44,161 nt of DNA. It comes from an uncultured Spirochaetaceae bacterium (GTDB lineage Bacteria; Spirochaetota; Spirochaetia; Sphaerochaetales; Sphaerochaetaceae). Position 1 is the stretch's first letter; each line of letters opens with the position of its first letter. The translations under genes were made by a program, and so were the position numbers. The DNA lies in NCBI GenBank assembly GCA_944389155.1, contig CALXLI010000021.1, positions 1 to 44,161 of the forward strand, written 5' to 3'. Shown here piece by piece: positions 349 to 34,989 of this stretch. Under the pieces are notes generated by a model, which ran no database searches, was not told where the DNA came from, and saw only the letters and a list, made by a program, of their open reading frames with translations.

Positions 349-1347
349 TCATAGCTTTGCCCTGTAATGTTTCTTCATATCCTCTTCGAACTCCTTATCA
401 CAGGCATATTCGCGGCCAAGGACCGGTAGCCACAGCGATGGATCTTCCATGCAGAGGTAGAAGAATACATTGTCTCTGAACTTCTGTGAAAACGATGAGA
501 ATACCGTAGAGAACATCTTCTTCTTTGTTTCCAGCGGATATGAATACTTTCCTGCAGCTTCTTCCAGTTCCATCTCAAGTGTACGGCTTTCCCGCCCCAT
601 CTGCCTGAGTTTTTTGATCACAGCCTTCGTAAACGTAAGCGTGCCGATGCTTATTGCGTAGATATCGCTAGGAGAGAATCTCTGCTCAATCATCTCTGCA
701 ATCTTCGGATACTCATCATCCCAGCCTTTGAAATAGACCATAGGGTGGATGTGAAAACCTACCAGAGCACCGCTGTCACGTGCTTTCTCAGCTGCGCCCA
801 GCCTCTCCTCGAGCGATGCAGTGAGATGTTCTTCCTTCTCTATTATCGTTGGAGCATTCAGGCTCCAAGAGAAGAAGATGTTCCGTGGGTACTTCCTGTC
901 GAATACATCCCTCTTGCTCTTTGACTTGAGCTCTATGATCACGTCAGGATGCTTCTCTGCAAATGCCGAGAGCGCTGAGAGCGTGCCGTAGTCATCTCCA
1001 AGCAGAAGCGAGTCGGAGGCCTGTCCTGTTCCTATATGCCATGTTGATTCATCAAGCGGTATCGATAATAGCTGTTCCTTCAGGTTCTTTATGGTATGTA
1101 TCTCGTTCTCGCTGTAGAATGCCTGAACTGAACAGTATGAACAGGAGAATGCACATTGTTCGACAGCATCCAGGGTACGCAGGTTGCAGCAGCGTGTCTT
1201 CTCGCCATCAACAGGGCAGGGACAGCGGCCAATGACCACGTTCTTGTCTATTTCCTTTACTCCATGCTTTACACGAGGAGAGGGGGATGGAAAGAATGTT
1301 GAGTAGTCTGTTTCGCTCTTCCTGAGCTTTGACATATACTCCCTCAT
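349..1347 (-). CDS. Spore photoproduct lyase-like radical SAM protein (core ORF)
   Basis: The 332-residue ORF carries a radical SAM cluster motif of the form CX3CX2C (CAFSCSYC), preceded by GRCPCPVDGEKTRCCNLRTLDAVE, the typical lead-in of SPL-family proteins. These enzymes use a [4Fe-4S] cluster and S-adenosylmethionine; spore photoproduct lyase repairs thymine photoproducts. Non-sporulating spirochaetes carry homologues whose substrate is not established. The same frame continues upstream to 1572 through a TAG codon (1422-1420), so this ORF is probably the larger part of an interrupted gene. Internal starts at 1347 or 1335 have only weak ribosome-binding sequences. The radical SAM core is intact, so a shorter protein could still be made. 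Confidence 0.7.
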   Translation of the reverse strand: MREYMSKLRKSETDYSTFFPSPSPRVKHGVKEIDKNVVIGRCPCPVDGEKTRCCNLRTLDAVEQCAFSCSYCSVQAFYSENEIHTIKNLKEQLLSIPLDESTWHIGTGQASDSLLLGDDYGTLSALSAFAEKHPDVIIELKSKSKRDVFDRKYPRNIFFSWSLNAPTIIEKEEHLTASLEERLGAAEKARDSGALVGFHIHPMVYFKGWDDEYPKIAEMIEQRFSPSDIYAISIGTLTFTKAVIKKLRQMGRESRTLEMELEEAAGKYSYPLETKKKMFSTVFSSFSQKFRDNVFFYLCMEDPSLWLPVLGREYACDKEFEEDMKKHYRAKL

Positions 1348-1572
1348 CCCATTTATGTACTCATCTCCCTTTCTTCCATCCTTTCTTCCATCTATCTTCC
1401 CATAGGGTGCTTTCTCCGTCTAAGGGAATTCCTTCCATTGCAGAAGATCAGCTTCAGCTTTGACTATCTCAAGCTTCTGGCTTTCAGAGAATCTGTAGCG
1501 TGACAGAAGCTTCTCGATCCTGTCCTTTGTGGATTCTGGAAGATATGTGAAGATATCATCAAAGGCTTTCAT
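1348..1572 (-). pseudogene. 5' segment of the SPL-like gene, separated by an in-frame amber codon
   Basis: From ATG at 1572 the frame reads MKAFDDIFTYLPESTKDRIE and continues for 50 codons to TAG at 1422-1420. It then runs on without another stop into the radical SAM ORF. The helical N-terminal extension resembles, from memory, the extension in spirochaete SPL-like proteins, which supports one original gene of about 407 codons. The ATG is 6 nt downstream of a TAGAAT hexamer (1584-1579) and has no Shine-Dalgarno sequence, which fits the leaderless pattern in this window. Just after the amber codon lies a 12-bp tandem duplication (1369-1392). Nonsense mutation or sequence error is most likely; TAG is also used as an ordinary stop by neighbouring genes. 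Confidence 0.6.
1369..1392. repeat. Two tandem copies of a 12-bp unit
   Basis: CTTTCTTCCATC occurs twice in direct succession. It is in frame with the SPL-like reading frame, where it encodes DGRK twice. It lies in the variable linker between the N-terminal extension and the radical SAM core. Confidence 0.8.
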
Positions 1573-6327: not shown

Positions 6328-6333
6328 ATTATA
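6328..6333 (-). promoter_or_regulatory. -10 element of the hprK operon
   Basis: A perfect TATAAT is followed by TCCCCGT and then ATG 6320. Transcription should start at the start codon. It directly follows the hpf terminator hairpin. No clear -35 is seen at 17 nt. Confidence 0.55.
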
Positions 6334-8144: not shown

Positions 8145-8875
8145 CAGCTGTCCTTATCAAAATCACGGCCGAAGTAGATTTCCCTGGCCCTTTCGTCTGC
8201 AAGAAGCTCTTCCTTTGTTCCGGAGACAAGTATCTCGCCTTCGGAGATTATATGTGCTGTTGTTGTTATCTCAAGGGTATCGCGGACATTGTGATCGGTG
8301 AGGAGTATTCCTATCCCGCTATCTGCAAGCTGGCGTATTATCTGCTTGATCTCATATACAGCTTTGGGGTCTATTCCTGCAAATGGCTCATCGAGGAGGA
8401 GGAACTTCGGGCTTGTCGCGAGTGCTCTGGCTATCTCTGTGCGCCGTCTCTCTCCGCCCGAGAGCGTATAGCCGTACTGCTTGCGGACCTTTGCGATTCC
8501 GAACTCAGCTATCAGGCGTTCAAGCATATCCTTCTTGTCGTTCCTTGAAAGATGCTTCTGGGTCTCGAGGACGAGCTTTATATTATCCTCTACGGATAGC
8601 TTACGGAATATCGATGCTTCCTGCGGCAGGTATGCCAGTCCAAGCCTTGAACGCTTATGCATCGGCAGTGTCGTGATATCCGTACCATCTATGAGCACAT
8701 GTCCGCCATTCGCCTTTATGAAACCTACGATCATATAGAACGATGTCGTCTTTCCTGCGCCGTTGGGGCCAAGAAGTCCTGTTATGTCCCCGGATGACAT
8801 GGAGAATGTCACGTTCTTGACAACGTGCTTCCTGCCATAGAACTTGGAAAGATTCTCAGCTTTAAGCTCAGCCAT
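8144..8875 (-). CDS. lptB: LPS export ABC transporter ATPase
   Basis: LptB powers extraction of lipopolysaccharide or a similar glycolipid from the inner membrane. The 243-residue ATPase has Walker A (GPNGAGKTTSFYMI), a Q-loop segment (LPQEASIFRKL), the signature LSGGERRRTEIARAL and Walker B (FLLLDEPFAGIDP). The LPQEASIFRKLSVEDNI stretch is characteristic of LptB over other ABC ATPases. It sits between lptA and rpoN and overlaps both. LptF and LptG are not in the window. Confidence 0.95.
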   Translation of the reverse strand: MAELKAENLSKFYGRKHVVKNVTFSMSSGDITGLLGPNGAGKTTSFYMIVGFIKANGGHVLIDGTDITTLPMHKRSRLGLAYLPQEASIFRKLSVEDNIKLVLETQKHLSRNDKKDMLERLIAEFGIAKVRKQYGYTLSGGERRRTEIARALATSPKFLLLDEPFAGIDPKAVYEIKQIIRQLADSGIGILLTDHNVRDTLEITTTAHIISEGEILVSGTKEELLADERAREIYFGRDFDKDS

Positions 8876-9494
8876 TTATATTTCCTCTTATGCGCCCTTC
8901 GAGCGTTATGGAATCAGTATTGAGATCTACTCTGATAACCTCTGCTCCGTATTCGTTGCCATCCCAGTATACTTGAGCATCGCCACGAAGCTCCAGCGTG
9001 TTGTCGCCACGTGAGAAGACCACGCTTTCAGCCATGCATCGCATTATACCACGATCTGTATCCTTCATCAGCGTCACGCTTTTATCAAGCTGCAGATGCT
9101 CATCATTGAGCCTGTATTCAAGATATGCCCCTGTTGCAGAGACTGCGTTGACTGTATCATCAACCTCGAACCATGATGATATCAGTATGCGCTCTTCATT
9201 CCTGTCATAGAAGACCGTTGATGTTCTTATGCTTATACCGCGCTCATCATCCGTGATAGATGCGTTCCCGCTGCATTCAACCCGGCTCCAGCCATCGCCT
9301 GAAAGCGTTATCGTGTCCGCACTGATCGTGAGCGATCCGACAGATACTGAAGCACCTGAGGAAAGCACGACGCTTTCCCGTCCATTCCGGAGCACTATTG
9401 AGCTGTCACCGCCATTGAACGTGATTGTATCGGCTGATGATATGGCGGCCAATGCATATGCAAGCATAAGTATTGCCAGGATAGCTTTTCTCAT
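8868..9494 (-). CDS. lptA: LptA/OstA-like periplasmic protein
   Basis: The 208-residue protein has a signal peptide (MRKAILAILMLAYALAAISSA) and repeated beta strands of the OstA type (SADTITLSGDGWSRVECSGNASITDDERGISI). In the family these strands form the periplasmic bridge carrying LPS from LptC to the outer membrane. Sequence similarity to proteobacterial LptA is low, so the call leans on fold-like pattern and position between lptC-like and lptB. It overlaps lptB by 8 bp. An AAGGAG lies about 10 nt before the ATG. Confidence 0.7.
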   Translation of the reverse strand: MRKAILAILMLAYALAAISSADTITFNGGDSSIVLRNGRESVVLSSGASVSVGSLTISADTITLSGDGWSRVECSGNASITDDERGISIRTSTVFYDRNEERILISSWFEVDDTVNAVSATGAYLEYRLNDEHLQLDKSVTLMKDTDRGIMRCMAESVVFSRGDNTLELRGDAQVYWDGNEYGAEVIRVDLNTDSITLEGRIRGNING

Positions 9495-10012
9495 ATGTTG
9501 AAGACTCCTTCTGCGATGGAGGCAAATGAATAGTTCTCTTCCCTCAGGTCTCCTTTGAATCCTGTTCCGAGGAAAGTACCATCATCTGAAGATACGTATA
9601 CATCACCATCTGCCTCTATTTCAGATGTCGCTGAGTTGAAGAACAGGCTTTCGGCCTCTATGTGCATATTGGAGCTATGCTGCTCAAGTGCGACGTTGCC
9701 TGAAAGATGCATGCTTCTTTCGCTTGTATTTATATCCGCTGTATCAGCGGATCCTGTTATCGCTGCATTTCCTTCATCATCGTATTGGATGAATGTAATA
9801 TTCTCAGTTGTCGCTCTTTCCTCTTCGCTGTATAGCGTCATGCGGGAGCTTTTGATGAATATTGGATTCTCACCGCTTTGTCCGAGCGTGTAGTCCGCAT
9901 TCTCGAGTATTATGCTTGGGTGGGAAATCTTCTCTCCGCGTTCCTCTGTCTCTGTCACGAAAGAGCATGATGAAAGCAGGGCGATGAAGAGCAGGGGAAG
10001 AAGCTTTCTCAT
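9491..10012 (-). CDS. lptC: LptC-like lipoprotein/membrane-anchored protein
   Basis: The 173-residue protein starts MRKLLPLLFIALLSSCSF, a lipoprotein-type signal where LptC normally has a membrane anchor. The body resembles the LptC beta-jellyroll: SRMTLYSEEERATTENITFIQYDDEG, then SGNVALEQHSSNMHIEAESLFFNSATSEIEADGDVYV. Start 10012 is preferred over 10018 because AGGA lies 7 nt upstream of it. It should pass the glycolipid to the LptA-like protein encoded next. Gene order supports the call more than sequence does. Confidence 0.65.
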   Translation of the reverse strand: MRKLLPLLFIALLSSCSFVTETEERGEKISHPSIILENADYTLGQSGENPIFIKSSRMTLYSEEERATTENITFIQYDDEGNAAITGSADTADINTSERSMHLSGNVALEQHSSNMHIEAESLFFNSATSEIEADGDVYVSSDDGTFLGTGFKGDLREENYSFASIAEGVFNI

Positions 10013-10407
10013 CAGCATTTCCTTATTATTCTTGGGATATATTCCCTTTTCCTGAAATGGAAGTATACAGCAGCGATGGCGAAACCGATGGCAACGCCAA
10101 TGATAGCTCCGATAAGCCTTATGCCGTCGCTTTCAGAGAATAAGGATGCTATGAAATAACCGGGAAGGAACATAATGAGCGGAAGGCCGAGGGACATGAA
10201 GACGGAAAAGAGCGTCTTGGAGGAGGGCATGTCGATCTCAGCCTTATCTCCTGCCTTAAGCTCTATGTTCTCAGGATTCAGCACCTCAAAGGTAGTTTTC
10301 TTTGATGTGCAGAAGAAGGAGCCCTTGCAGCCTTCACATGCGTTTCTGTCGCATCCGGCTGTAATCGTGCCATCCTCATTCTGCTGTATTGTCACTTCCT
10401 TTCTCAT
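10012..10407 (-). CDS. RseC/MucC-type (SoxR-reducing) membrane protein
   Basis: The 131-residue protein has an N-terminal Cys cluster (CDRNACEGCKGSFFC, spacing CX4CX2CX5C) and two membrane segments (about 64-86 and 93-115). This is the layout of RseC/MucC proteins. Relatives take part in electron transfer through Rnf-type complexes or in sigma-E control; no Rnf or rpoE gene is in the window. It overlaps ymdB (32 bp) and the lptC start. A redox role is inferred from the cysteines only. Confidence 0.75.
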   Translation of the reverse strand: MRKEVTIQQNEDGTITAGCDRNACEGCKGSFFCTSKKTTFEVLNPENIELKAGDKAEIDMPSSKTLFSVFMSLGLPLIMFLPGYFIASLFSESDGIRLIGAIIGVAIGFAIAAVYFHFRKREYIPRIIRKC

Positions 10408-11221
10408 TCCTTGCCTCCGGTCTGGTTATCTTGACATGTCTGGAGATCCTTTCTATTGCGGTGCTTCTGCCTCTCTCTTCATCCACGCTCACAACCACAC
10501 CTTGGATTATACCATCATTCCAGCATTCCTGGCTTCTGAGCGGAAGCTGTGACCGGAGCTTGCTTATCTCATTCTCCGCATCAAAGCCACCGACTGACAT
10601 GAATGATCCTACGCGTCCGTTGTCGCTTATATATGCCAGTCCCTTTCCGCTTATGCTCTCATCTGCGCTGAGCACCTTTGTGTGTGTGCCGATGACAGCC
10701 GCAGCCCTTCCATCAAGAAAGAACTTCATAGTCTTCTTCTCAGCTGTTGCCGCTGCATGGAACTGGACCATTGGAATGATGTTCCCTTCCTTCTCTGCAA
10801 GCTTCTTAAGCAGCGAGTCTATGGACAGGAAGGCGTTCTGAAGGTTCTGCCTCTGCAAAAGCGCATTGCCCTGCAGGTTTATGAACACGAACTTCCTGTC
10901 TTTCAGCGTTACAATCCTGAAGCTCTTGCCTGGACACTGCGGAGGGTAGTTCGCCGGCCTTATTATGAAGCTCTGGTGGGATATGAACTCAACCATATCG
11001 ACTTTATAGAAAAGCTTCTCGCCGCCTGTTATGAGATCTATTCCGCTTTTGGAAAGCTGTATTGCGTGCTGTCTGCCAAGCCCGAAGCCATTTGTCATGC
11101 CCTCGGCATTCGCTACTGTATAATCTATATCGTATTCTTCTTTAAGCGACTCAAGCCCTGCCTTGATAGCTGTTAAGCCGGGCCTTCCTGTCACTTCTCC
11201 AAGAAAGAGTATCCTGACCAT
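10376..11221 (-). CDS. YmdB-family metallophosphoesterase with degenerate active site
   Basis: The 281-residue protein aligns along its length with YmdB (TIGR00282), a dimetal cyclic-nucleotide phosphodiesterase: MVRILFLGEVTGRPG, VANAEG, FHAAATAEK, VIGTHTKV, SDNGRVGS. Several ligands differ from the Bacillus pattern. GD is GE (Glu9), the Asn after the conserved Glu is Gly41, GNH is GGE (Gly67, Glu68), and HTH is HTK (Lys182). His155 and His180 remain. Activity may be lost or changed. Start 11221 gives the standard N-terminus. It lies 22 bp downstream of hflX and overlaps rseC. Confidence 0.8.
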   Translation of the reverse strand: MVRILFLGEVTGRPGLTAIKAGLESLKEEYDIDYTVANAEGMTNGFGLGRQHAIQLSKSGIDLITGGEKLFYKVDMVEFISHQSFIIRPANYPPQCPGKSFRIVTLKDRKFVFINLQGNALLQRQNLQNAFLSIDSLLKKLAEKEGNIIPMVQFHAAATAEKKTMKFFLDGRAAAVIGTHTKVLSADESISGKGLAYISDNGRVGSFMSVGGFDAENEISKLRSQLPLRSQECWNDGIIQGVVVSVDEERGRSTAIERISRHVKITRPEARNEKGSDNTAE

Positions 11222-11243
11222 GGTTGCTAAGGATACCTCATAG

Positions 11244-12491
11244 TCAGTTAATTGGGAAGACGAGATATTTCCCTGCAATGCTTTTCCTCAGCCTTGCCTT
11301 CACAGTTACCTCTCCGTCTCCATATTCAATCTCCTTCACCGTTCCATCCCTGTAGAGATCGCTGATGAGCGATGCAGAGCATGGCGAGGATATGACTATG
11401 TCCTCAAAAGCCTCATCCGTTGCTCTTTCCATCGCTTTCTTCAGGTTTTCCATGCCTTCTCCGTTTTTCATCGATGTTTCCACAACTGCGTAAGGGGAGG
11501 ACCTGAGCGCCGCGTATGAGATATCATCATAGATGCTGTCTGTCTTGTTTATGACAAGTATCTTCACTTTGTCTTTCGCTCCAAGCTCCTCAAGTGTCTT
11601 CTCTGTCTCCTTCAGGCATCCGACGGCATCTGGGTGCGATGCATCTGCAACTATTATGAGGGCTTCGGCTGAAAGCGCCTCTTCAAGCGTTGATGAGAAT
11701 GCCTTCACGAGTCCTTTAGGCAGATCTGATATAAAGCCGACAGTGTCTGACAGGAGTACTTTCTGGCCTGAAGGAAGCTTCATTGATCGTGTGGTTGTAT
11801 CAAGGGTTGCGAAGAGCTTGTCCTCTGCCAGCGTTTCCGCTCCGGTGAGTGCATTGAGTATCGTGGATTTCCCTGCATTGGTGTATCCGACGAGGGCGAA
11901 TGTGAATATCCCGGAACGCTCTCTTGAGCTGCGTTGCGTACGTCTGACATTCTCGCTTGCCTTTATCTCCCGGTCAAGCTGATGGATACGGGTGTCTATC
12001 ATACGGCGTTCAAGCTCTATCTTCCTTTCTCCTTCGCCCTTTGCGCCTCTTACACCGCCTCTCTGCTGCGAAAGCCTTGCTTCCCTGTTTGCCAGCCTGG
12101 GCCTCAGATACTCAGCTTCAGCTTTCTCTATCTGAAGCCTTGCTTCCCTGGATCTTGCGTTCTGGAAGAAGATTGACAGGATCACAGCTTCCCTGTCCGA
12201 GACAGGTATGCCGAGGGCCTCTTCCAGGTTCTTCTCCTGCCTCGGCGTTATCGAGGCATCGATTATGGCTTCCTCTGCCTCGAATGCAAGAACGGCCTCT
12301 CTTGCTTGCTCTGCCTGTCCTTTTCCTATAAGGGTTGAGCTCCGTGCTTCCTTCAGCGTTATGTGTACTGTATAGACAATGTTCAGGCCAAGCGTTGATA
12401 TAAGGCTACGGATTTCAGCTTCCTTCAGAAATGATCTGCGTTCGCTCTCTCCGCTTTCCCTCACTGTTATGAGAAGAACTCTATTCTCCAT
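11244..12491 (-). CDS. hflX: GTPase HflX
   Basis: HflX is a ribosome-binding GTPase that splits stalled or heat-damaged ribosomes. The 415-residue protein has the HflX N-terminal domain (LIGKGQAEQAREAVLAFEAEEAIIDASITPRQEKNLE) and a coiled-coil with QQRGGVRGAKGEGERKIE. Its G domain has G1 GYTNAGKSTILNALTG, G3 DTVGFISDLP and G4 NKTD. ATG 12491 is chosen over the TTG at 12527 because that TTG is the first part of a -35 (TTGCAG). The matching TATTCT lies 17 nt on and ends 7 nt before the ATG. It heads the long minus-strand operon to rpoN. Confidence 0.95.
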   Translation of the reverse strand: MENRVLLITVRESGESERRSFLKEAEIRSLISTLGLNIVYTVHITLKEARSSTLIGKGQAEQAREAVLAFEAEEAIIDASITPRQEKNLEEALGIPVSDREAVILSIFFQNARSREARLQIEKAEAEYLRPRLANREARLSQQRGGVRGAKGEGERKIELERRMIDTRIHQLDREIKASENVRRTQRSSRERSGIFTFALVGYTNAGKSTILNALTGAETLAEDKLFATLDTTTRSMKLPSGQKVLLSDTVGFISDLPKGLVKAFSSTLEEALSAEALIIVADASHPDAVGCLKETEKTLEELGAKDKVKILVINKTDSIYDDISYAALRSSPYAVVETSMKNGEGMENLKKAMERATDEAFEDIVISSPCSASLISDLYRDGTVKEIEYGDGEVTVKARLRKSIAGKYLVFPIN

Positions 12492-29321: not shown

Positions 29322-29963
29322 TCACTTCCTGGCCATAGGGAACTGAAGCTCATAGAAAATCTGCTCAAGCTCAAGGGCGATGTTGATGTTATGTATTACG
29401 ACAGGCGTCTCATCGTCCTTTGCCGGGCGTGGCTTCAGCGTTATCGGGGAGAAATTGAGGACACCCCTTATTCCTGCTTCAAAGAGCTTTTCCGCTGTAT
29501 CGGCAGCTGCCGATTCCGGTACTGTGATGATTGCGACCTTGACGCCAAGTGCGCTTACGATCTCATCAAGCCTTGACATAGGATATACAGGAACTGGGTT
29601 GGATGCATCCGCATAGACGATAGGGTCATTGTCGAAGCCCGCTACTATCCTTATCCCATCAGGCTCGAATCCGGAGTAGTGCATAAGCGCTTTCCCGATG
29701 CGTCCGCAACCGATTATTATCACATCCTGCTCATCGCCTTTGCCGAGTATGGCGCTCAGTTTTCCGATAAGCTCGGTTATCTCGTATCCGCCTCTTTTCT
29801 GGCCATGGATTTCAAGAATGGAGAAATCCTTTCTTACAACCGCTGCCGATACTCCTGCCGCATCTGCAAGATTGTGTGCGAAGACTTTCTCCAAACCGAT
29901 TGCCCTGAGCCTATTAAGGGCTCTGTAATATCTTGTAATTCTGATGAGCATATCACTATTCAT
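29322..29963 (-). CDS. rex: Redox-sensing transcriptional repressor Rex
   Basis: Rex represses fermentation and hydrogenase genes and is released by NADH. The 213-residue protein has the N-terminal winged helix (LIRITRYYRALNRLRAIG, ADAAGVSAAVVRKDFSILEIHGQKRGGYEI) and a Rossmann domain with IIIGCGRIGKALM and GFDNDP, then NFSP and HNINIALELEQIFYEL. Length is typical. GAGG lies 8 nt before ATG 29963. It is divergent from the NADH-linked hydrogenase operon, and a palindrome between them overlaps a TTGACA on the rex strand, suggesting self-control and control of hyd. Confidence 0.96.
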   Translation of the reverse strand: MNSDMLIRITRYYRALNRLRAIGLEKVFAHNLADAAGVSAAVVRKDFSILEIHGQKRGGYEITELIGKLSAILGKGDEQDVIIIGCGRIGKALMHYSGFEPDGIRIVAGFDNDPIVYADASNPVPVYPMSRLDEIVSALGVKVAIITVPESAAADTAEKLFEAGIRGVLNFSPITLKPRPAKDDETPVVIHNINIALELEQIFYELQFPMARK

Positions 29964-30122: not shown

Positions 30123-30587
30123 ATGGCTCAAAACATATTCTCCGATGAGCTTAATGCCTTTATTTCCGAATGGAAGGGAAAGCCGGGCAATCTCATCATG
30201 ATCCTGCATAGGGTTCAGGAGGAATTCGGGTATGTTTCCCGTGAGGCTGCAGAGGAGGTTTCCAAACAGCTTGGCATTCCTATGGCATCAATATGGGGAG
30301 TGCTTACCTTCTATCATTTCTTCAAGCTCAACAAACCAGGAAAATATAACATCCAGGTGTGTCTTGGTACAGCTTGCTATCTTAAGGGTGGCGATATGAT
30401 AGTCGAGGAACTTGGAAAGGAAATAGGTGTTGAGGTCGGTGGCTTGACTGAAGATGGCAAGTTCTCATTGGAGGCTGTCAGATGCGTTGGATGCTGCGGA
30501 CTTGCACCTGTGATGACAATCTCCGGTGAGGTCTTCGGCAAGGTTACCAAGGACCAGATCCACGGAATACTGGACAAGTTTGCCTGA
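30123..30587 (+). CDS. hydC: NuoE-like [2Fe-2S] subunit of NADH-dependent hydrogenase (HydC)
   Basis: The 154-residue protein matches the NuoE/HydC thioredoxin-like subunit: NLIMILHRVQEEFGYVSREAAEEVSKQLG, SIWGVLTFYHFFKL, CLGTACYLKGG and AVRCVGCCGLAPVM. The cysteines of the last two motifs hold one [2Fe-2S] cluster. It is the small subunit of the trimeric bifurcating hydrogenase HydABC. ATG 30123 has a strong AAAGGAGGAG. Its stop overlaps the next start (TGATGG). Confidence 0.93.
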   Translation: MAQNIFSDELNAFISEWKGKPGNLIMILHRVQEEFGYVSREAAEEVSKQLGIPMASIWGVLTFYHFFKLNKPGKYNIQVCLGTACYLKGGDMIVEELGKEIGVEVGGLTEDGKFSLEAVRCVGCCGLAPVMTISGEVFGKVTKDQIHGILDKFA

Positions 30588-31072
30588 TGGAGGTCTTCGA
30601 GCTCATCCTTGAAGCTGTGGAGAACAGTGTTGAAGCGGGTGCATCCCATATAGATGTGACCGTGGACAGCGAGGATGGGAGAAACAGGGTGAGCATCACT
30701 GATGATGGATGCGCGGCGTTGCCTGATGCACCATTTGATGCAGGATGCACTACCAAGGGGGCCGGAAGGGGACAAGGGCTGTCTAAGATATGCAATGAGA
30801 GCGGAGGATGCTGTTCGATCTCCCGGCTTGAAGGCAGGACAAGGCTTGAGTTCCTTGCAGGAGAGGATAAACGCGTAGGCGATCTTTCTTCATCCCTTCT
30901 TCCTATATTCCTTTTCCCTGTTGATATATCGTTGACAATCAATATAGCCGGGAAGGGCTTCACGCTCTCTACCTGGCAACTAAGGGAGCACGATGCATTC
31001 CCTGATAGAGCTGGAGCAATCGGAAGATTCCGTGAGCTGGTCCAGCTGAAAGAAGGAGAGATCTATGGCTAA
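30587..31072 (+). CDS. HATPase-fold protein of the hydrogenase operon
   Basis: The 161-residue protein shows GHKL-type ATP-binding motifs: an N box (LILEAVENSVEAGASHIDV), a G1-like motif (ITDDGCAAL) and a G2-like loop (CTTKGAGRGQGLSKICNESGG). No dimerisation/His domain precedes them, so it is not a sensor kinase. Similar stand-alone ATP-binding genes occur in hydrogenase operons of Clostridia and Thermoanaerobacter, as far as I recall; their function is not settled. It overlaps both neighbours. A role in assembly or regulation is conjecture. Confidence 0.7.
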   Translation: MEVFELILEAVENSVEAGASHIDVTVDSEDGRNRVSITDDGCAALPDAPFDAGCTTKGAGRGQGLSKICNESGGCCSISRLEGRTRLEFLAGEDKRVGDLSSSLLPIFLFPVDISLTINIAGKGFTLSTWQLREHDAFPDRAGAIGRFRELVQLKEGEIYG

Positions 31073-31442
31073 GCTTTCGCTTTCCGACCTTCGCAGCATC
31101 AGAGAGCGCGAGGAGAAGAATCTGAAAAAGCGCGATATCCACGGCCGCACGGTACATGTGGTTGTCGCAATGGGAACATCCGGCATAAACGCCGGCGCAA
31201 AGCTGACCCTGAACACTATCGCTGACGAGGTGGAGAAGAAGGGTCTGGATAACGTGATCATAACGCAAACCGGCTCGGCATACCCTAATCCGGAACCTGT
31301 TGTTGAGGTATTCTCACCAAAGCAGGGCTTGGTGATATATGGCAATGTCGACAAGGAAACAGCTGTACGTATAGTCAACGAGCATCTTGCTGAAGGCAGG
31401 ATCCTTGAGGACAAGAAGATTGAACTGAAGGAAGAGGAGTAG
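31065..31442 (+). CDS. Cys-less thioredoxin-like ferredoxin-fold protein (HydD-like)
   Basis: The 125-residue protein has a basic coiled start (LRSIREREEKNLKKRDIHGRT) and then VHVVVAMGTSGINAGAKLTLNTIADEV. This follows the pattern of small (2Fe-2S) ferredoxin-domain proteins in hydrogenase operons, but has Ser where Cys is usual. No Cys is present anywhere, so a cluster cannot be bound in the standard way. It lies between the HATPase protein and HydB with coupled starts; AAGGAG precedes the ATG. A structural or scaffold role is possible. Confidence 0.65.
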   Translation: MAKLSLSDLRSIREREEKNLKKRDIHGRTVHVVVAMGTSGINAGAKLTLNTIADEVEKKGLDNVIITQTGSAYPNPEPVVEVFSPKQGLVIYGNVDKETAVRIVNEHLAEGRILEDKKIELKEEE

Positions 31443-31445
31443 GAG

Positions 31446-33233
31446 ATGGGATTCAAGAACTATATTCTCGTTTGCGGAGGTACAGGATGTGAATCATCCC
31501 GCTCCGATCAGATCTATCATTCGCTTATAGATGAGGCTCAGGCTCAGGGAGTCTCAGATCAGGTACAGGTCATCAAGACAGGATGCTTTGGATTCTGCGA
31601 GCAGGGCCCTATCGTGAAGATCCTGCCGGAGGATTCCTTCTACGTACAGGTAAAGCCTGAGGATGCCAAGGAGCTTATCGCGGAACATGTCATAAAGGGC
31701 AGGGAGGTCACAAGGCTTCTTTACAACAAGGCTCCCAGAAAGGCATATGAGGAAGTAGAGGACATCAAGTTCTATCAGAAGCAGCTGAGAATCGTCCTTC
31801 GCAACTGCGGATCTATAGATCCTGAGAATATCGATGAGTATATTGCAGCTGATGGCTATAAGGCACTTGAGAAGGTTCTCTTTGAGATGAAGCCTGATGA
31901 TGTCATTGAGGAGCTCAAGACTGCAGGTCTCAGAGGCCGTGGCGGTGCTGGATTCCCCACATGGATGAAATGGAACTTCACGAAGCAGGCTGAGGGCGAT
32001 GAGAAGTACGTTGTCTGTAACGCTGACGAGGGTGATCCGGGTGCATATATGGACCGCTCAACGCTTGAAGGCGATCCGCATTCAGTGCTTGAGGCCATGA
32101 CTATCTGCGGCCACACAATCGGTGCTCATCATGGGTATATCTATATACGTGCAGAGTATCCTCTTGCAATACACCGCCTTGAAGTTGCGATGAAGCAGGC
32201 AAGGGAGTATGGACTTCTCGGAAAGGATATCCTTGGATCTGGCTTTGATTATGATATCGAGATAAGGCTTGGTGCAGGTGCGTTCGTCTGCGGAGAGGAA
32301 ACAGCATTGCTGCAGTCAATTGAAGGCCATAGAGGAATGCCTCAGCCTCGTCCGCCATTCCCAGCTGTAAAGGTACTTTGGGGGAAGCCGACTGTAATAA
32401 ACAATGTAGAGACTTGGGCAAACGTCGCTCAGATAATAAACAAGGGTGGTGCATGGTTTGCCTCAATCGGTACAGCGGATAGCCATGGAACAAAGGTTTT
32501 CGCTCTTACTGGAAAGATCTGCAATTCGGGTCTTGTAGAGGTTCCTATGGGAACTACCCTTCGTGAGATTGTCTATGATATCGGAGGCGGTATCGCACAT
32601 GGAAAGAGATTCAAGGCTGTCCAGACAGGTGGCCCTTCCGGCGGTGTCATAACAGAGGAGAATCTCGATACTCCTATCGATTTTGGCGGACTGCAGAAGA
32701 TCGGCTCGATGATGGGTTCTGGCGGAATGATCGTAATGGACGAGGATGACTGTATCGTTGACGTTGCGAAGTTCTACCTTAACTTCACCGTAGATGAGTC
32801 ATGTGGAAAGTGCGCTCCATGCCGAATTGGAGGAAAGAGCCTCTGCAACATACTTGAGAAGATCACACAGGGCAAGGGTGAGGAGAGCGATATCCAGCAG
32901 ATACAGCAGATTGCACATGCTATGAGAATCGGATCGCTGTGCGCACTTGGACAGACTGCACCAAACCCGGTTCTTTCAAGCCTGAGGTATTTCCCTGAGG
33001 AGTATCAGGCACATATCCATGACAAGAAGTGCCCATCTGGCAAGTGCAAGAAGCTCATAAGCTATGAAATCAATCCTTCTAAGTGTATTGGATGTACAGC
33101 TTGCTCTCGCAAGTGTCCTGTCGGTGCCATTTCCGGAGAGGTCAAGAAACCTCATAGGATCAATGGCAATGTCTGTATCAAGTGCGGAGTCTGCAAGGAA
33201 ACTTGTAAGTTCGGTGCTATAGAGATTCACTAG
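31446..33233 (+). CDS. hydB: NADH-binding flavoprotein subunit of bifurcating hydrogenase (HydB)
   Basis: The 595-residue subunit has three parts. First is an N-terminal thioredoxin-like [2Fe-2S] domain (CGGTGCESS, TGCFGFCEQGP). Next is a NuoF core with the NADH-binding GLRGRGGAGFPTWMKW, the FMN-binding CNADEGDPGAYMDRS and the 4Fe-4S motif ESCGKCAPCRIG. Last is a C-terminal pair of ferredoxin motifs (CIGCTACSRKCPVGAI and CIKCGVCKETCKFGAI). This is the layout of HydB/HndC, which splits electrons between NADH and ferredoxin. TAGGAG precedes the start. Confidence 0.96.
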   Translation: MGFKNYILVCGGTGCESSRSDQIYHSLIDEAQAQGVSDQVQVIKTGCFGFCEQGPIVKILPEDSFYVQVKPEDAKELIAEHVIKGREVTRLLYNKAPRKAYEEVEDIKFYQKQLRIVLRNCGSIDPENIDEYIAADGYKALEKVLFEMKPDDVIEELKTAGLRGRGGAGFPTWMKWNFTKQAEGDEKYVVCNADEGDPGAYMDRSTLEGDPHSVLEAMTICGHTIGAHHGYIYIRAEYPLAIHRLEVAMKQAREYGLLGKDILGSGFDYDIEIRLGAGAFVCGEETALLQSIEGHRGMPQPRPPFPAVKVLWGKPTVINNVETWANVAQIINKGGAWFASIGTADSHGTKVFALTGKICNSGLVEVPMGTTLREIVYDIGGGIAHGKRFKAVQTGGPSGGVITEENLDTPIDFGGLQKIGSMMGSGGMIVMDEDDCIVDVAKFYLNFTVDESCGKCAPCRIGGKSLCNILEKITQGKGEESDIQQIQQIAHAMRIGSLCALGQTAPNPVLSSLRYFPEEYQAHIHDKKCPSGKCKKLISYEINPSKCIGCTACSRKCPVGAISGEVKKPHRINGNVCIKCGVCKETCKFGAIEIH

Positions 33234-33243
33234 GAGGCTTTGA

Positions 33244-34245
33244 ATGATTCATCTAACCATACAGGGAATAGAAGTTGAGGTTGCAGAGGGAACAACCGTA
33301 CTTGAGGCTGCAAGGAAAGCCGGTATCAGGATCCCAACTCTCTGCTATCATCCAGATCTCAAGCCATTCGGTTCATGCGGACTGTGCGTATGCAAGCAGG
33401 AAGGATCTTCAAAGATCATCCGTGCATGCTCAACTCCTGCAGCTGAAGGCATGAGGATCATAACGCACGATCAGGATCTTTATGAGGTAAGAAGGACAAT
33501 CCTTGAGCTTACGATGAGTACCCATCCTTCCTCCTGTCTGATGTGCACCAAGAACAATCAGTGTGAGCTTCAGAAGCTTGCTATTGAATATGGAGTTCGT
33601 GAACAGCCATTTGAGGTCCGCCTTGCAGAGGATAAGAAGGACCGCTCTACAGGTGCTGTCGTCCTTGATCCTGAGAAGTGCATCAAGTGCGGGCGCTGTG
33701 TCCAGGTATGCCAGGGCCTTCAGGGAGTCTATGCTCTTGAATTCATCGGCCGTGGCGATAAGACGACGATGAGTCCAGCTGCTTCCCTTCCTCTTGGATC
33801 CTCTCCTTGCATCAAATGCGGACAGTGCATCACGCATTGCCCAGTAGGCGCAATCTATGAGCAGGATCAGACAAATGATCTGATGAAGGCCATTGCCGAT
33901 CCAGATAAGGTCGTTGCAGTCCAGATTGCACCGGCTGTCAGGGTTGCTATCGGAGAAGAGTTCGGAATGAAGCCTGGTGAGATTTCCACTGGAAAGCTCT
34001 ATACAGCTCTCCGTCGCCTTGGCATTGATTACGTATTCGATACAAACTTCGGTGCTGACCTTACGATCATGGAAGAGGGATACGAGCTTCTTGCCAGGAT
34101 CAAGAACGGTGGAGTGATGCCTCAGATCACATCCTGCTGCCCAGGATGGGTTGATTACGTTGAGGAGTATTATCCAGAGCTTTTGGACAATCTCTCATCT
34201 GCAAAGAGCCCGATGATGATGCAGGGAGATATCACAAAGACATAA
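33244..34245 (+). CDS. hydA: [FeFe] hydrogenase catalytic subunit, N-terminal part, ended by in-frame ochre codon
   Basis: The 333-residue ORF holds the electron-transfer half of HydA. It has a NuoG-like [2Fe-2S] domain (LCYHPDLKPFGSCGLCVCKQ), a His-Cys 4Fe-4S motif (HPSSCLMCTKNNQC) and two ferredoxin motifs (CIKCGRCVQVC, CIKCGQCITHC). It also has the first H-cluster motif ITSCCPGWVDYVEEYYPELLDNLSS. It stops at TAA (34243-34245) after SPMMMQGDITKT, where the family normally reads on with Tyr. The remaining two H-cluster motifs follow in the same frame, so this product cannot form the active site. TAGGAGG precedes the ATG. Confidence 0.92.
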   Translation: MIHLTIQGIEVEVAEGTTVLEAARKAGIRIPTLCYHPDLKPFGSCGLCVCKQEGSSKIIRACSTPAAEGMRIITHDQDLYEVRRTILELTMSTHPSSCLMCTKNNQCELQKLAIEYGVREQPFEVRLAEDKKDRSTGAVVLDPEKCIKCGRCVQVCQGLQGVYALEFIGRGDKTTMSPAASLPLGSSPCIKCGQCITHCPVGAIYEQDQTNDLMKAIADPDKVVAVQIAPAVRVAIGEEFGMKPGEISTGKLYTALRRLGIDYVFDTNFGADLTIMEEGYELLARIKNGGVMPQITSCCPGWVDYVEEYYPELLDNLSSAKSPMMMQGDITKT

Positions 34246-34989
34246 TGGAGCGAGAAGTCCGGAATAGATAAGAAGAACATCTATTCGGTCGCCATCATGC
34301 CATGTACTGCAAAGAAGCATGAGATAAGAAGAGATGGAGAGCATGCTTCATCCTCTGGTGTCTATGATGTTGACCTTGTTCTTACAACAAGGGAGCTTGC
34401 CCGTCTCATACTGTCACGCGGTCTTGATTTCGCTTCCCTCCCAGAGAGTGAAGCTGATAGCCCGATCGGTGAATACACAGGCGCTGGCACTATCTTCGGC
34501 GTAACAGGTGGTGTGATGGAAGCTGCAATCCGCACTGCTTACTATGGCCTGACAGGGACAGAGCTTGCAGATCCTGAGATAAAGCTTGTCAGAGGCATGG
34601 ATGAGGTAAAACTCGGCGAGGTTGATGTAAACGGCAGGAAGGTGCGTGTTGCCGTAGTTCATGGAATGAGCAATGCGAAGGCGCTTCTGGAGAAGATAAA
34701 GAGCGACAAGGCTGCCGGAAAGGAAAGCAACCTGGATTTCATTGAAATCATGGCATGCCGTGGCGGCTGTATCGCAGGAGGCGGTCAGCCATACGGTACA
34801 GATGATCGCGTAAGAGAAGAAAGGATTGCAGGCCTTTATACTGATGATGAGAAATCAGCAAAGAGATGCTCTCATCAGAACCCTTCAATCCAGAAGCTTT
34901 ACAAGGAATTCCTTGGAGAGCCGCTCTCGGAGAAGGCACATCATCTTCTCCATACAGAGTACCATCAGATCCCTCTTTACAAGGACTGA
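34246..34989 (+). pseudogene. hydA: C-terminal part of hydA, in frame after the ochre codon
   Basis: Directly after the TAA the frame reads WSEKSGIDKKNIYSVAIMPCTAKKHE (second H-cluster motif) and later EIMACRGGCIAGGGQPYG (third motif, with both bridging cysteines). It ends with the normal hydrogenase tail. No frameshift or further stop interrupts it. The first ATG (34297) lies inside the second motif and has no Shine-Dalgarno sequence, so separate translation is unlikely. The gene is either freshly inactivated, read through, or affected by a sequencing error. Confidence 0.85.

Follow-up and report, generated by a model that had tools for sequence, protein, structure and literature searches.

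A private in-frame stop codon interrupts a conserved NADH-linked [FeFe] hydrogenase gene in a draft Spirochaetaceae genome

A hydrogenase gene that is broken by a single stop codon and is well preserved on both sides of it raises the question of whether the organism is losing the enzyme, tolerates the stop by read-through or use of a shortened protein, or does not carry the stop at all. We have addressed this for hydA, encoding the catalytic subunit of an NADH-linked (HydABC-type) [FeFe] hydrogenase, at positions 33244–34989 on the forward strand of a 44,161-nucleotide contig of an uncultured gut bacterium of the Spirochaetaceae (the whole contig is referred to here as the window). Translation of this segment gives 333 codons, an in-frame TAA at codon 334 (34243–34245), and then 247 open codons to the natural stop TGA at 34987–34989; relatives are open at full length. 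All three H-cluster motifs are present, although not in one open frame: motif 1 (TSCCPGW, with its core CCPGW at 34135–34149) lies 5’ of the TAA, and motifs 2 (MPCTAKK; 34297–34317) and 3 (ACRGGCIAGGG; 34753–34785) lie 3’ of it. The two pieces match positions 1–334 and 336–570 of the 571-position NF040763 profile (NADH-dependent [FeFe] hydrogenase) with scores of 452 and 317 bits, each singly below the cut-off of 765, and we found no lesion other than the TAA on either side of it. The translation and the profile matches thus bear out the initial annotation, which described hydA as split between motifs 1 and 2, with a continuous frame to either side and motifs that are otherwise intact. Re-initiation at the ATG of motif 2 (34297) was considered and rejected, as no ribosome-binding site is evident upstream and the product would be without motif 1.

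The rest of the NADH-linked complex had also been described as intact, and this is the case for hydC, the ferredoxin-like gene and hydB. The forward strand carries hydC (NuoE/HoxE-like; 30123–30587, with a conserved start at 30123), genes for a HATPase-domain protein (30587–31072) and a small [2Fe-2S] ferredoxin-like protein (31065–31442), and hydB (NuoF-like, 595 residues; 31446–33233), all intact; an intact gene for a Rex-type redox regulator adjoins the operon on the opposite strand (29322–29963). In keeping with the HydABC type, intact NuoE-like and NuoF-like genes lie directly upstream of hydA. Among solved structures, the window HydA is closest to the HydA subunits of the electron-bifurcating HydABC complexes 8a6t, 7q4v and 7p5h, which belong to NF040763 (group A6), and it shares with these both the domain order and the three H-cluster motifs. 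The operon likewise provides NuoE-, ferredoxin- and NuoF-like subunits. The window gene differs from its family in having the TAA at codon 334 and an Ala329Asp substitution, both absent in the compared relatives.

The nearest relatives are metagenome-assembled Spirochaetaceae and Spirochaetales genomes, and the close ones include Candidatus Ornithospirochaeta. An alignment with the HydA of close relatives, which had been proposed as a check, shows that the stop is private to this genome: none of 77 relatives with a near-full-length hydA has an internal stop, and those read have TAC or TAT (Tyr) at codon 334, or in a few cases Phe, as anticipated from the Tyr that is usual in the family. A stop common to a clade is therefore rejected. 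Against 25 genus-level relatives, the window hydA deviates at three otherwise invariant columns, Lys106Gln, Ala329Asp and Tyr334stop. Ala329Asp (34228–34230) lies beside the stop and results from a single base change at 34229 (GCY to GAT), 16 bases upstream of the stop change, at a codon that specifies Ala in all 25 aligned relatives. The suggestion that the residues GDIT preceding the stop are abnormal is thus correct, but they reflect one base change rather than two, and GA[I/V]T, not GAxI, is the norm. Lys106Gln (CAG, 33559–33561, with the changed base at 33559) is farther from the stop.

Both halves of the gene are conserved in the manner of an intact hydA. Comparison of the window gene with its two nearest relatives gives dN/dS values of 0.012–0.013 before the stop and 0.026–0.028 after it; the corresponding ranges in pairwise comparisons among intact relatives are 0.008–0.032 and 0.015–0.086. 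Third codon positions account for 44 of the 55 base changes attributed to the window lineage. Since purifying selection holds before the TAA and is not relaxed after it (approximately 0.03, as in intact relatives), we reject an old pseudogene. The substitution pattern indicates that hydA has been under strong purifying selection until now, which argues that the TAA is a mutation of very recent origin or else an error in the consensus.

How commonly genes are disrupted in this and related genomes bears on how the stop should be viewed. The draft assembly has 149 contigs at 89.5% completeness, and we compared 0.79 Mb of it with 1.11 Mb of the relative G004. Three of the 238 genes comparable with G004 are disrupted – hydA, a gene for a radical SAM protein resembling spore photoproduct lyase (SPL-like) on the same contig, and a gene with a frameshift on contig C43 – and the reciprocal test on G004 found none in 236. 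The SPL-like gene (352–1572, reverse strand) has a TAG at codon 51 (1422–1420), a position occupied by Tyr in the two nearest relatives and mostly by Phe in others, with a stop in none of 24 aligned relatives. The C43 lesion (L229, near position 6328) is in a ferredoxin-like gene that is frameshifted relative to G004, consistent with a 2-base deletion. The SPL-like stop hints at local error in the window but does not reach significance, because window genes already make up 31 of the 238 genes compared. Several other apparent stops relative to G004 were discounted. Those in L141, L026 and L160 are in reading frames overlapped by a predicted frame on the opposite strand; a pair in L195 was considered spurious, although no opposing frame confirms this; and some near gene starts precede the probable start. 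When 292 kb was scanned by codon usage, with a sensitivity of only about 37%, the hydA site and one normal gene boundary were flagged and nothing else, and we reject the idea of a genome full of stops. Among approximately 300 intact-length operon genes of related assemblies, three contain an internal TAG, and the background of such stops is therefore about 1% per gene. These are in hydB of the draft genome L054 (position 2400, where most relatives have CAG, Gln), in hydC of L089 (near 889–1350, GVVAF*HFF, at a codon that is Tyr in matched relatives), and in rex of Bullifex porci, a named strain (L064, position 271). A literature search for premature stops in hydrogenases or in metagenome-assembled genomes found no paper on either topic.

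We therefore hold with high confidence that this is an ordinary hydA with a private nonsense change of Tyr334 to TAA and a neighbouring private Ala329Asp, and that the stop is either a very recent mutation or an error in the draft consensus. This agrees with the earlier suggestion of a fresh loss or an assembly error, as the stop is private and both halves of hydA are conserved, and we saw no evidence to the contrary. It is an ordinary case: like recent nonsense-type pseudogenes or stop artefacts in draft assemblies, it is a single private stop in a conserved gene, and we see no difference from these. There is about an even chance that the organism’s DNA has a Tyr codon and that the contig carries an error at 34245, perhaps with another at 34229. 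Two private changes at otherwise invariant codons only 16 bases apart, another nonsense codon within the same 44 kb contig, the fragmented assembly and the strong conservation of the rest of hydA are all consistent with such an error, although substitution errors in a short-read consensus are usually rare, and the C to A change is not unusual among the changes of this lineage (9 of 55). That the sampled strain genuinely acquired a nonsense mutation very recently, with natural loss of HydABC activity, is somewhat less likely than not. The TAA base is there in the sequence, a recent null accounts for the intact conservation on both sides of it, and a second, less conserved gene is disrupted and another frameshifted in the genome, such that disruption is not unique to hydA; however, HydB is at least 86% identical to that of the window in 43 of 48 genomes of the genus (its own included) and no relative has a disrupted hydA, so that loss is rare. 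We lean slightly towards a consensus error over a real mutation because the gene is strongly conserved, a private change is present at an invariant codon 16 bases away, and there is a second nonsense codon on the contig.

Two further explanations would leave the stop in place and the gene in use, and we regard both as very improbable. Read-through or suppression of the TAA, which the initial annotation had also raised, would yield full-length HydA and fits the conservation on either side of the stop; moreover, at both nonsense codons in the window the nearest relatives have Tyr, a pattern that an ochre suppressor inserting Tyr could produce. However, Tyr codons are one base away from a stop and Tyr-to-stop changes are thus frequent by chance, and programmed read-through is unsupported since the stop is private to one genome and absent from all relatives read. 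Neither a reassigned code nor a suppressor tRNA is supported: across 292 kb of the genome, 43 of 191 reading frames with 250 codons or more end in TAA, and among 31 of the 33 tRNA genes found (all except those of 82 and 86 bases on contigs C91 and C142) there is none with a UUA, CUA or UCA anticodon, and the tRNA-Tyr seen has the anticodon GUA. The more specific proposal that a Tyr-inserting suppressor reads both TAA and TAG in this lineage, such that hydA and the SPL-like gene both give full-length proteins, we consider barely credible. Alternatively, the truncated HydA could itself be functional, for example in a bifurcating complex without a hydrogenase, where it would serve as the iron-sulfur wiring subunit. 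The 333-residue fragment retains its iron-sulfur domains at the N terminus, and two reports (PMC9304861, PMC10482914) describe HydB-like bifurcating complexes that lack an H-cluster, but selection is not relaxed in the downstream half of the gene and the short form occurs in no relative.

Should the private stop be real, the protein would end at residue 333, keeping only motif 1 of the H-cluster together with the N-terminal iron-sulfur domains, and HydABC would be unable to assemble an H-cluster. The contig would then capture a strain in the course of losing its NADH-linked hydrogenase, which would be of modest interest for hydrogen metabolism in the gut. The case serves mainly as a warning against inferring the loss of a pathway from one private stop in a draft genome. 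The earlier interpretation as a loss of hydrogen metabolism goes too far, as genes for the maturases HydE, HydF and HydG are all intact in the genome (contig C108), as is a monomeric group B1 [FeFe] hydrogenase on contig C47, and loss of HydABC therefore need not mean loss of hydrogen metabolism. Also on contig C47 (L027), at 8599–11579, a gene for a PAS-domain [FeFe] hydrogenase-like protein immediately precedes one for a SpoIIE-type phosphatase, and the group B1 [FeFe] hydrogenase follows both; this set is possibly a hydrogen-sensing unit. Five genomes placed in the same genus (G042, G022, G041, G005 and G013) have a HydB only 54–55% identical to that of the window, in contrast to the others, and to judge from this divergence they seem to carry a different hydrogenase.
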